A stretch of 64,000 bases of DNA from Microbacterium cremeum (GTDB taxonomy: Bacteria; Actinomycetota; Actinomycetes; Actinomycetales; Microbacteriaceae), in contig NZ_CP063812.1 of assembly GCF_015277855.1 (NCBI RefSeq), positions 2,790,001 to 2,854,000 of the forward strand. The letters are read 5' to 3'. Shown here one piece after another: positions 42,507 to 46,475 of this stretch. Below the pieces are notes generated by a model. The model saw nothing but the letters and a program-made list of their open reading frames with translations, ran no database searches and was not told the origin of the DNA. Position 1 is the stretch's first letter; the number at the start of each line of letters is the position of its first letter. The position numbers were made by a program, and so were the translations under genes.

Positions 42507-43574
42507 ATGACCGGAGTTCCGGGACTGGACACGGCGGGGTTCGCCGCATGGCTGGACGCCGCGCACCCGGAGCTGGCGACGGCAGGTGAGCTGACGGCAT
42601 CCGTCATCGCGGGCGGGCGCAGCAACCTCACCTATGCCGTCGACGGTGCGCGCGTGCCGCTCATCCTCCGGCGCCCCCCGCTCGGGCACGTGCTCTCGAG
42701 CGCCCACGACATGCGGCGCGAGCATCGGGTGATCTCGACTCTCGCGGGCTCGGGCGTGCCGGTGCCCACGGCGATCGACGTCGTCGACGACACCGATGCC
42801 GCCCGCGTCACAGGGACCGTGTTCTTCGTCATGGAGCGGTCCCCGGGCCGCGTGCTGGTGAAGCGCGAGCAGAACGCCGACTACTCCCCCGCGGGCCTCA
42901 GGCGTCTCAGCCTCGATCTCGCGCGACACCTCGCCGACCTGCACGCAGTGGATCCGGCATCCGTCGGCCTCGGCGACTTCGGCCGCCCCGACGGCTACCT
43001 GGAACGGCAACTGAGCACGTGGCGGCGGCAGCTGGATGCCTCGCGGTCACGCCCGATGCCGAAGCTCGACGCCCTGGAGGCCGGGCTCGGCGCCGAGGTC
43101 CCGCGCACGGCACGCACCGGCATCGTGCACGGCGACTATCGGCTCGACAACGCGCTCGTCGTCGGCACCGCCGAAGAGCCTCGCATCTCGGCGATCCTCG
43201 ACTGGGAGATGGCGACCCTCGGCGACCCGCTCGTGGACGTGGGCATGCTCGGCATGTACTGGGACATCGCCGATCTTCCGGGAGGGTCGGGGGTCGTGCC
43301 GAGCTCCGTCGATCCCGCGGCCGGCTATCCCGCGTTCGCCGAGCTCGTCGACGCGTACGCCGAACGCGGCGGCATCGGCGTTCCCGACCTGCGCTGGTAC
43401 CGGGCCTTCGCCGCGTACAAGCTCGCCGTGATCCTCGAGGGCATCCACTACCGCTTCCAGGCGGGCGCCACGGTCGGCGAGGGGTTCGACCGCATGGGCG
43501 CGCTGGTCGAACCGCTCGCCCGGTCAGGACTCGCGACCCTCGCGGCCGGCCCTCGCACACAGGAGGTGCACTGA
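42507..43574 (+). CDS. APH-type acyl-CoA phosphotransferase (ACAD10/11 kinase domain, LvaA-like)
   Basis: 355 residues of an aminoglycoside-phosphotransferase/protein-kinase-like fold. The Brenner motif is HGDYRLDNALV (catalytic Asp, metal-binding Asn) and the metal-binding loop is AILDWEMATLGDPLVDVG. An N-terminal GRSNLTYAVD is the nucleotide loop. It is followed with a 1-nt overlap by a dehydrogenase of the ACAD10/11 clade. In human ACAD10/11 the two domains are fused, and in Pseudomonas LvaA-LvaC they are separate; both phosphorylate 4-hydroxyacyl-CoA so that the dehydrogenase can remove the phosphate. It is not an antibiotic-resistance kinase. No LvaB-like small partner is seen. Confidence 0.88.
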   Translation: MTGVPGLDTAGFAAWLDAAHPELATAGELTASVIAGGRSNLTYAVDGARVPLILRRPPLGHVLSSAHDMRREHRVISTLAGSGVPVPTAIDVVDDTDAARVTGTVFFVMERSPGRVLVKREQNADYSPAGLRRLSLDLARHLADLHAVDPASVGLGDFGRPDGYLERQLSTWRRQLDASRSRPMPKLDALEAGLGAEVPRTARTGIVHGDYRLDNALVVGTAEEPRISAILDWEMATLGDPLVDVGMLGMYWDIADLPGGSGVVPSSVDPAAGYPAFAELVDAYAERGGIGVPDLRWYRAFAAYKLAVILEGIHYRFQAGATVGEGFDRMGALVEPLARSGLATLAAGPRTQEVH

Positions 43575-44891: not shown

Positions 44892-46475
44892 ATGACCACC
44901 CACCCGAACGACCCCGCGATCGACGGGCCCGGCTTCGCGACGCTGTCGGTCGCGAGCATCCTCGCCGAGTCGGCCGTGCGGCACGCGGAGCGCACCGCGT
45001 TCCACTTCGCCGGCACGACCACCACCTACCGCGACCTGTGGGACCAGACCCGTGCGTATGCCGGCGCATTGCGCGCCCGAGGCATCGGCCGCGGCAGCCG
45101 CGTCGCGATGCTCGTCCCGAACGTCCCGGATTTCGCGCGCGTGTACTACGCCACGCTGTCGCTCGGCGCGGTCGTCGTGCCGATCCACCTGCTGCTCAAG
45201 GCCGACGAGATCGCCTATGTGCTGCGCGACTCCGGCGCCGACCTGCTCGTGGCGGCCGCACCGCTGCTGGGCGAGGCGACTCCGGCCGCCGGCCAGGCGG
45301 GCGTGCCGCTGGTGACCGTGCTGCTGCCCGCCGACGCCGGCGTCGACCTGCCCCGGCTCGAGCTCGAGGCCGCGACGGCGACCCCGATCCCCCGCCACGA
45401 GCCGGTGAATCCGCTGGATGCCGCGACCATCCTCTACACGAGCGGCACGACCGGCATGCCCAAGGGTGCGGTCGGGTCGCACCTGTCGATCGTCGAACAG
45501 GTGCACGCGACGCTCATCGACGCGTTCGACCTGCGCGCCGACGACGTGGTCTTCGGCGGGCTGCCGCTGTTCCACACGTTCGGGCAGACCGCGGTGATGA
45601 ACATCGCGCTGCGGGTCGGGGCATCCGTCATCCTCCTCCCCCGCTTCGACCCCGACCAGGCCCTCGCGCTGATGGCCGGGCACGAGGCGACGGTGTTCAC
45701 GGCGGTGCCGACGATGTACGTCGGGATGCTGGAGGCCGCCCGCCGCTCGGACGCCCGCCCGCCGTTGCGGTACGCGGTCTCGGGCGGGGCGGCACTGCCC
45801 GTCGCAGTGCTCGAGGGGTTCCGCGAGTCGTTCGGCGCCGACGTGCACGAGGGGTACGGGCTCACCGAGACCGCGCCGACGGTGTCATCGAACCCGCTGC
45901 ACGAGCCGATCCGCCCGGGCACCGTCGGACGCACGATGTGGGGCGTCGACGTCGCGATCGCCGATCCCGAGGTCGAGGATCGCATCGAGCTGCTCGACGC
46001 GCCGGGCGCGCTCGGCGAGGTGGTCGTGCGCGGCCACAACCTCTTCAAGGGATACCTCGGGCGGGAGGATGCCTCGGCCGCCGCCGTCGTCGACGGCTGG
46101 TTCCGCACCGGCGACCTCGGCACGTACGACGGGGGCGTCCTCACGATCGTCGACCGCAAGAAGGACATGATCGTGCGCTCGGGCTACAACGTGTACCCGA
46201 CCGAGGTCGAGGCCGTGCTCGCGCGGCACCCGGGAATCGCGATGGCCGCGGTGTTCGGCGTCGCCGACGACGTGCGCGGGCAGGAGGTGCACGCGGCCGT
46301 CGTGGCGCACGAGGGGGTCGCGCTCGACGCCGACGAGGTCGTGGCCTTCGCGCGCGAGCGGATCGCGGCATACAAGTACCCGCGCATCGTGCACGTCATG
46401 CCCGCGCTCCCGCTCGGCGCGAGCGGCAAGGTGCTCAAGCGCGAACTCGTCGCTCAGTTCACCCCGGTGCACTGA
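44892..46475 (+). CDS. Acyl-CoA synthetase (AMP-forming)
   Basis: 527 residues of the ANL superfamily. Adenylate loop TILYTSGTTGMPKGAV, core YGLTETAPTVS, hinge RTGDLG and DRKKDMIVRSGYNVYP, and the C-terminal catalytic Lys in GASGKVLKREL. Activates a carboxylic acid to its CoA ester with ATP. The gene is third in the operon after the kinase and ACAD (58-nt gap with a hairpin; ribosome site AAGGAGA), so it probably activates the hydroxy or oxo acid brought in by the neighbouring ABC importer. Chain-length preference is not readable. Confidence 0.93.
   Translation: MTTHPNDPAIDGPGFATLSVASILAESAVRHAERTAFHFAGTTTTYRDLWDQTRAYAGALRARGIGRGSRVAMLVPNVPDFARVYYATLSLGAVVVPIHLLLKADEIAYVLRDSGADLLVAAAPLLGEATPAAGQAGVPLVTVLLPADAGVDLPRLELEAATATPIPRHEPVNPLDAATILYTSGTTGMPKGAVGSHLSIVEQVHATLIDAFDLRADDVVFGGLPLFHTFGQTAVMNIALRVGASVILLPRFDPDQALALMAGHEATVFTAVPTMYVGMLEAARRSDARPPLRYAVSGGAALPVAVLEGFRESFGADVHEGYGLTETAPTVSSNPLHEPIRPGTVGRTMWGVDVAIADPEVEDRIELLDAPGALGEVVVRGHNLFKGYLGREDASAAAVVDGWFRTGDLGTYDGGVLTIVDRKKDMIVRSGYNVYPTEVEAVLARHPGIAMAAVFGVADDVRGQEVHAAVVAHEGVALDADEVVAFARERIAAYKYPRIVHVMPALPLGASGKVLKRELVAQFTPVH

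Follow-up and report, generated by a model that had tools for sequence, protein, structure and literature searches.

Gene content of the locus

The window analysed here is a 64,000-nucleotide stretch of the Microbacterium cremeum genome (contig NZ_CP063812.1, positions 2,790,001 to 2,854,000, forward strand), which is a single contig of 3.98 Mb. Between about 35.7 and 55.4 kb of the window lies a gene cluster of about 20 kb that is built around an APH-type kinase and an acyl-CoA dehydrogenase (ACAD) of the ACAD10/11 type. We think, with a probability of about 0.68, that it is a TetR-controlled catabolic island that takes a 4-oxo or 4-hydroxy acid into β-oxidation via a 4-phosphoacyl-CoA, of which we infer the steps, the substrate and the effector. 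Family membership, conserved residues, gene linkage, the operator and its co-occurrence with the TetR gene are results of computation.

The cluster begins with genes for an alcohol dehydrogenase (ADH), a short-chain dehydrogenase/reductase (SDR) and MaoC on the plus strand, followed by thiolase and FadE on the minus strand and by a TetR_C_36 regulator and a thioesterase on the plus strand. Then come the kinase, ACAD and ligase genes (plus), the five genes of a leucine/isoleucine/valine (LIV)-type importer (minus) and the genes of SDR2, TetR, an oxidoreductase called QOR and SDR3 (minus; Table 1). Families were assigned from our own gene calls and from Pfam and NCBIfam scans of 20 cluster proteins, while an Rfam scan of 34000-57500 returned no family at its cut-off. 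According to the gene calls, the kinase, dehydrogenase and ligase genes form a single operon and the first two share one base, so that an original prediction, made from the sequence of this stretch, was right on this overlap and its coordinates. The LIV importer (46803-51634, minus strand), MaoC, SDRs and thiolase that it had placed nearby were recovered by the Pfam and NCBIfam assignments as well, and its binding protein at 46803 is present, but its gene starts at 48098 and ends at 46803, being encoded on the minus strand.

For comparison, 80 related loci were chosen by similarity to the window and supplemented by 12 plasmid loci. Gene presence was judged by identity cut-offs that we set per gene, and a locus that had 10 or more of 17 cluster genes was counted as a large cluster, which holds for 32 of the 80 loci (12 genera, 31 genomes; L037 and L060 come from one strain). 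As a separate sample, 99 genomes of the genus were searched for the ACAD (E<=1e-120), TetR (E<=1e-50) and binding protein (E<=1e-100).

Table 1. Features of the cluster, with positions in the window
Feature	Position	Strand	Basis or remark
Operator ACCGACCGTGCGGTATG	35590..35606	-	before ADH-SDR-MaoC
Zinc alcohol dehydrogenase (ADH), class I-like	35705..36832	+	
FabG-type SDR, candidate (R)-3-hydroxyacyl-CoA dehydrogenase	36829..37578	+	Pfam, NCBIfam
MaoC-type enoyl-CoA hydratase	37575..38033	+	PF01575
Thiolase	38423..39637	-	matches NF005890 above cut-off; not preceded by an operator copy
FadE	39667..40989	-	nearest solved relative acyl-CoA oxidase 4 (2ix5)
TetR_C_36 regulator, divergent from FadE-thiolase	41021..41668	+	Pfam
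4HBT thioesterase	41735..42154	+	Pfam
Operator ACCGACCATCCGGTATG	42424..42440	+	before kinase-ACAD-ligase operon
APH-type kinase, predicted 4-hydroxyacyl-CoA kinase (LvaA/ACAD10-11 kinase-domain type)	42507..43574	+	PF01636, 154.5 bits
ACAD10/11-type dehydrogenase, predicted to convert 4-phosphoacyl-CoA to 2-enoyl-CoA	43574..44833	+	three ACAD Pfam domains; 2wbi; residues; tree
AMP-forming acyl-CoA ligase	44892..46475	+	PF00501 and PF13193; best start ATG 44892
LIV-type substrate-binding protein	46803..48098	-	PF13458; nearest solved 4n03/4kv7
Two LIV-type permeases	48095..50142 (48095-49267, 49264-50142)	-	PF02653
Two LIV-type ATPases	50142..51634 (50142-50825, 50891-51634)	-	PF00005
Operator ACCGACCGGGCGGTATG	51669..51685	+	upstream of the minus-strand LIV importer operon
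SDR3, frame broken near 52324-52343, ends approximate	52194..52938	-	blastx to open frames of relatives
MDR-type zinc-domain oxidoreductase (QOR)	52929..53999	-	Pfam
TetR repressor (TetR_N, TetR_C_24), likely regulator of four operators	53986..54576	-	Pfam; co-occurrence
SDR2, candidate 4-oxo/4-hydroxyacyl-CoA oxidoreductase (putative LvaD-like role)	54613..55368	-	Pfam; nearest solved DHRS4 3o4r
Operator ACCGACCAGCCGGTATG	55384..55400	-	before SDR2-TetR-QOR-SDR3

The dehydrogenase and its kinase

Searched against solved sequences, the dehydrogenase gave 59 matches (E<=1e-20), of which human ACAD11 (2wbi) came first with 437 bits and mouse ACAD11 and 4hr3 (410 bits) next, while the best conventional ACAD reached only 146 bits. 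Two of three blocks that the original prediction regarded as common with human ACAD11, LGPGRIHHCMR and DGPDEVH, are identical in 2wbi; the third, WWSTGA, is one residue off (WWSSGA). In mouse ACAD11 the residues R626, H634, R637 and the catalytic D753 were tested by mutation, whereas R631 is general to ACADs, according to the excerpted text of PMC12440821. An alignment maps equivalents of all four tested residues to the window ACAD, and the set is complete in 94 of 94 ACAD11-type rows (the window, human ACAD11, all 80 loci and all 12 plasmid loci). Seven other ACADs of the same genome, out of nine genome matches of which two were not fetched, have none of the four, but keep the R631 equivalent, as does the window ACAD. 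The 8v3v chain has Asn at the position mapped to D753, and we take this chain to be an inactive dehydrogenase mutant. The proline of the motif APDTGNMEV is kept in 93 of the 94 rows, with Leu in the plasmid locus L111; we assume that it is the equivalent of human ACAD11 Pro463, presumably the conserved proline of the ACAD10/11-LvaC subfamily.

A tree of 101 rows separates the 94 ACAD11-type rows, including the window and human ACAD11, from the seven other ACADs of the genome with an SH-aLRT of 100, so that the predicted placement in the ACAD10/11 clade held in this limited form. It is a quick tree from which LvaC is absent and L012 and L016 were omitted as duplicates of two window proteins, and its inner branching order is unsure because several branches are long. 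The excerpt of PMC11342911 gives LvaC an identity of 62% and 56% to the ACAD10 and ACAD11 domains, which suggests that LvaC belongs to the ACAD10/11 group. Judged by matches, residues and tree, the dehydrogenase is of the ACAD10/11 type.

As a separate observation, residues ~66-90 of this ACAD (43770-43845) form a Gly-Pro-rich, collagen-like insert, and the underlying DNA has a 9-base repeat. The stretch measures 28 residues; among 103 aligned rows, the 96 others in which it was measured have 5-15. Judged by match length, the ACADs of the genus genomes G047, G049 and G019 are also longer.

No other protein of the genome matches APH as well as the kinase (157.5 bits, versus 118.5 for the next), which among solved structures lies closest to 9o56, 3dxp and the kinase domain of ACAD11 (8v3v, 146 bits). 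The family catalytic residues D220 and N225 of the LvaA/ACAD10-11 kinases correspond to D210 and N215 in the window, and together with a later D232 these positions read Asp/Asn/Asp in all 83 rows compared. In 75 of the 80 loci the kinase gene lies within 350 bases of the ACAD gene on the same strand, and 33 of these 75 have the one-base overlap. A search against 5.8 billion proteins was uninformative on function, the best 120 of 7997 matches being mostly from Microbacterium where named. Neither the kinase nor the ACAD had any model over cut-off in the NCBIfam scan, and no HAD domain was found in the Pfam scan of the proteins of this region. From what these families have in common with characterized relatives, the kinase and dehydrogenase probably strip the hydroxyl group from 4-hydroxy fatty acids.

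Operator and TetR regulator

The four operators listed in Table 1 follow the pattern ACCGACC-N3-CGGTATG and lie 16-99 bases ahead of four operons. Perfect copies occur four times in the genome, every one inside the cluster, where a simple estimate from base frequency gives about 0.16 per genome. With at most one mismatch, five sites are found in the genome, the fifth, imperfect one being located outside the cluster, and the backward pattern used as a control has none. In many relatives the palindrome takes the form CATACCG-N6-CGGTATG. Of the 80 related loci, 55 have a site that deviates by no more than one base (147 strand-wise matches, versus 2 for the backward control), and these include every large-cluster locus (32/32). 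Assigned to genes, with some palindromic sites tallied on both strands, the sites stand before the kinase (39), LIV ATPase (30), ADH (28), SDR2 (17), FabG-type SDR (5), thioesterase (4), TetR_C_36 (2), TetR (2) and QOR (1); in four Glycomyces loci the site directly precedes the thioesterase gene that faces FadE.

In the genus sample the TetR is found in 17 genomes, a perfect operator in 19, the ACAD in 17 and the binding protein in 14. The perfect operator is present in 17 of 17 genomes having the TetR, versus 2 of 82 lacking it, so that the TetR of 53986-54576 is likely its repressor and likely represses the four operons through the palindrome, as far as co-occurrence can indicate. ACAD and TetR are present together in 16 of the 17 genomes that have each. 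Solved relatives of the TetR include 3dcf (85 bits), SCO3833 (68) and KstR2 (56), and we infer that it would sense an acyl-CoA. In genome G052 (C1:3814777-3816185) a TetR with one perfect adjoining operator occurs without an ACAD match, which may be either a relic or a case in which the regulator is used separately.

It could be imagined that the cluster is a chance neighbourhood in which ordinary β-oxidation genes lie beside an importer for branched-chain amino acids and a gene resembling an antibiotic kinase, and LIV importers, SDRs and ACADs are indeed common families. The confinement of the four perfect operators to the cluster, the ACAD11-specific residues and a gene content that is conserved in 32 loci of 12 genera, with the gene order changed in some, make this explanation extremely improbable. 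In the Promicromonospora and Glycomyces loci, for instance, the gene order is altered and the content mostly conserved.

A second repeated element of about 90 bases, an imperfect palindrome that resembles a repetitive extragenic palindrome or a miniature inverted-repeat transposable element (42285-42390, 46541-46631, 55465-55561, 4564-4671), lies near two of the four promoters and was examined as a candidate operator. We rejected it because it is scattered over the whole genome: with the first copy as query, 39 rows fall at 18 near-full-length places, the copy itself among them, and at a small number of short ones, some of these places being grouped in small clusters. The pattern CGGATCCGGNAANCCGGA guessed for this repeat had no match. 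Upstream of the importer operon (51691-52095), a 9-base tandem repeat CGCTGGGAT is found, together with two 99-base copies that are 88% alike and have 67-base inverted arms at 81%.

LIV-type importer

The importer has the complete LIV/HAAT-type make-up of a binding protein, two BPD_transp_2 permeases and two ATPases. A structure model of the binding protein (30 sequences, mean pLDDT 85) led Foldseek to LIV-type binding proteins, among which the fold search picked out no single ligand. The alignment comprised 29 of the 30 locus sequences, L056 being omitted as its frame ran on. The top sequence match is 4n03 (81 bits), an entry titled as the binding protein of a fatty-acid ABC transporter, and it is plausible that the importer takes up an organic acid. 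Binding protein and ACAD occur together in 12 of the genus genomes.

The kinase and ACAD could instead act in the clean-up of endogenous or scavenged lipid fragments, with the importer and the other operons serving a broader diet of fatty or branched acids under the same regulator. The kinase is kept in 43 of the 48 loci that lack a large cluster, and importer genes exceed the thresholds in none of them, some being cut by contig ends; moreover, ACAD10/11 drive 4-hydroxy acid catabolism in the mouse, as the excerpted PMC12440821 reports. The ACAD is patchy, however, being present in 17 of 99 genus genomes, and this distribution, together with the operator that the importer has in common with it, is more in keeping with a dietary island, so that we regard the clean-up role as unlikely.

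Ligase and accessory enzymes

No NCBIfam model was over cut-off among the 25 best matches of the ligase. SDR2 may be the LvaD counterpart, with an identity of at best 39% to the SDRs of the plasmid clusters. SDR3 has a single open frame in L018, L021, L023, L026 and L041, and its broken frame in the window may be either a real mutation or a sequencing error. The FadE-thiolase genes and the TetR_C_36 gene diverge over about 30 bases (40989-41021), an arrangement which suggests that the thiolase branch has a regulator of its own.

These oxidoreductases exceed the need of a levulinate route and, like the presence of FadE and of TetR_C_36 as second regulator and the lack of a specific ligase match over cut-off among the 25 best, would suit a larger or branched substrate (a terpenoid, lactone or side chain) that passes one 4-hydroxyacyl-CoA stage, with ADH, QOR, FadE and the other SDRs acting earlier. 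The 20 scanned proteins nevertheless include no oxygenase, no ring-opening family and no hydrolase except the thioesterase, and the small clusters L022 and L025 retain kinase, ACAD, SDR2 and TetR. We therefore consider such a substrate improbable.

Elsewhere in the window, two predicted proteins of 85 residues (14159-14416 and 18212-18469, minus strand) are identical in their first 25 residues, and a predicted protein of 1526 residues is encoded nearby at 18615-23195. This region may, as an impression, be a type VII secretion locus.

Relation to known systems

The phosphate-elimination chemistry has already been described for the lva operon and for ACAD10/11 (excerpts of PMC6692424, PMC11342911 and PMC12440821). 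Like the lva operon, the window cluster unites a kinase, an LvaC-type ACAD, an SDR and an acyl-CoA ligase, for which the same chemistry is predicted (PMC6692424 and PMC11342911, in excerpt). The lva operon has the sigma54-dependent LvaR and LvaF/LvaG of the acetate-symporter type, whereas the window cluster has a TetR and a LIV-type ABC importer and additionally places MaoC, a FabG-type SDR and ADH behind the common operator. The scan, which covered 20 proteins of the cluster and not the remaining genome, includes neither an LvaR-type regulator nor an LvaF/LvaG symporter. Mammalian ACAD10 and ACAD11 combine a kinase and an ACAD of the same two families in one fused chain; in the window these are two separate polypeptides without a detected HAD domain, and the ACAD11-specific residues are kept.

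The lva cluster of P. citronellolis LA18T likewise consists of kinase, ACAD, SDR and ligase without lvaB, according to the excerpted PMC6692424, which also lists a histidine phosphatase and an acetate-type symporter; both are missing from the 20 scanned proteins of the window. Plasmid clusters of Deinococcus, Pseudoalteromonas, Thermus and Haematobacter also have an ACAD11-type gene with a phosphotransferase nearby, and that of Haematobacter stands near LIV permeases and ATPases, as in the window. In the first three (L105, L107, L108) a histidine phosphatase, not seen in the window cluster, lies near the kinase, which parallels P. citronellolis (PMC6692424, in excerpt).

The original prediction, that an LvaB-like partner is lacking, agrees with the searches. 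PF19802 (DUF6285), the family to which we assume LvaB belongs, has no match in this genome or in any of 12 other large-cluster genomes, whereas the control search found it in 2 of 14 named genomes; the Thermus plasmid has a DUF6285 gene after its kinase. A literature search on DUF6285 found no paper. As the P. citronellolis cluster without lvaB had already been reported, the missing partner is not novel. Assays showed activity for ACAD10 and for an LvaA orthologue from Burkholderia, and the excerpt of PMC11342911 does not mention LvaB for them. The same excerpt describes an ACAD10-dependent phosphorylation in cells with 4-hydroxyhexanoate, but not with 5- or 6-hydroxyhexanoate, which supports a position specificity here, if the function is kept. 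Among open-licence PMC papers, titles and the starts of abstracts revealed no recognisable actinobacterial lva/ACAD11-type pathway. The chemistry is thus known, and what is new is the actinobacterial regulon with its operator, TetR and importer.

Proposed pathway and its meaning

In the pathway that we favour, the LIV-type importer would take up the acid and the ligase would turn it into the CoA thioester. SDR2, perhaps with SDR3, QOR or ADH, would then reduce a 4-oxo group or adjust the 4-hydroxyl, which the kinase would phosphorylate. The ACAD10/11-type enzyme, with FAD but no external electron acceptor, would eliminate the phosphate to give the 2-enoyl-CoA, and MaoC, the FabG-type SDR and thiolase would complete one turn of β-oxidation. 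The TetR would repress the four operons via the palindrome and would probably be released by an acyl-CoA intermediate.

Several findings weigh against this pathway or its generality. The operator scans found no site in the window for the thiolase-FadE pair (38423-40989, minus strand), so that the "one operator" of the original prediction stands for the four operons and fails for thiolase. Its interpretation as a 4-hydroxyacid route is partly supported, by residues, kinase linkage, common operator, tree and the lack of a DUF6285 match, with thiolase again outside. The residue set also occurs in five of the 12 plasmid loci (L102, L103, L104, L111 and L113) that have no kinase in about 5 kb around by tblastn or in the gene tables where annotated, and hence the residues do not prove the coupled reaction here. 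The ligase is above threshold in 29 of the 32 large clusters and therefore not universal. In the genus, G098 has the ACAD without TetR or perfect site, G046 and G053 have a perfect site without TetR or ACAD, and 5 of the 17 genomes with the ACAD lack the binding protein, while 2 genomes have it without the ACAD. The LIV fold is moreover generic, with solved relatives titled for amino acids (leucine, valine), aromatic acids and urea.

Tentatively, and with rather less confidence than in the pathway itself, the cluster may represent a widespread undescribed system of actinobacteria, present in at least 12 genera, in which a LIV-type transporter imports one particular natural compound, either a 4-oxo or 4-hydroxy acid or a lactone, for degradation by phosphate elimination, under a repressor that senses the 4-hydroxyacyl- or 4-phosphoacyl-CoA. 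The 4-phosphoacyl-CoA route of Pseudomonas and mammals would thereby be extended to an actinobacterial regulon with about 20 candidate genes. If this is true, 4-oxo and 4-hydroxy acids, lactones and levulinate from biomass would be a class of carbon sources for many actinobacteria, further kinases would work without LvaB, and the TetR with its operator could serve as a part of a levulinate or lactone biosensor.

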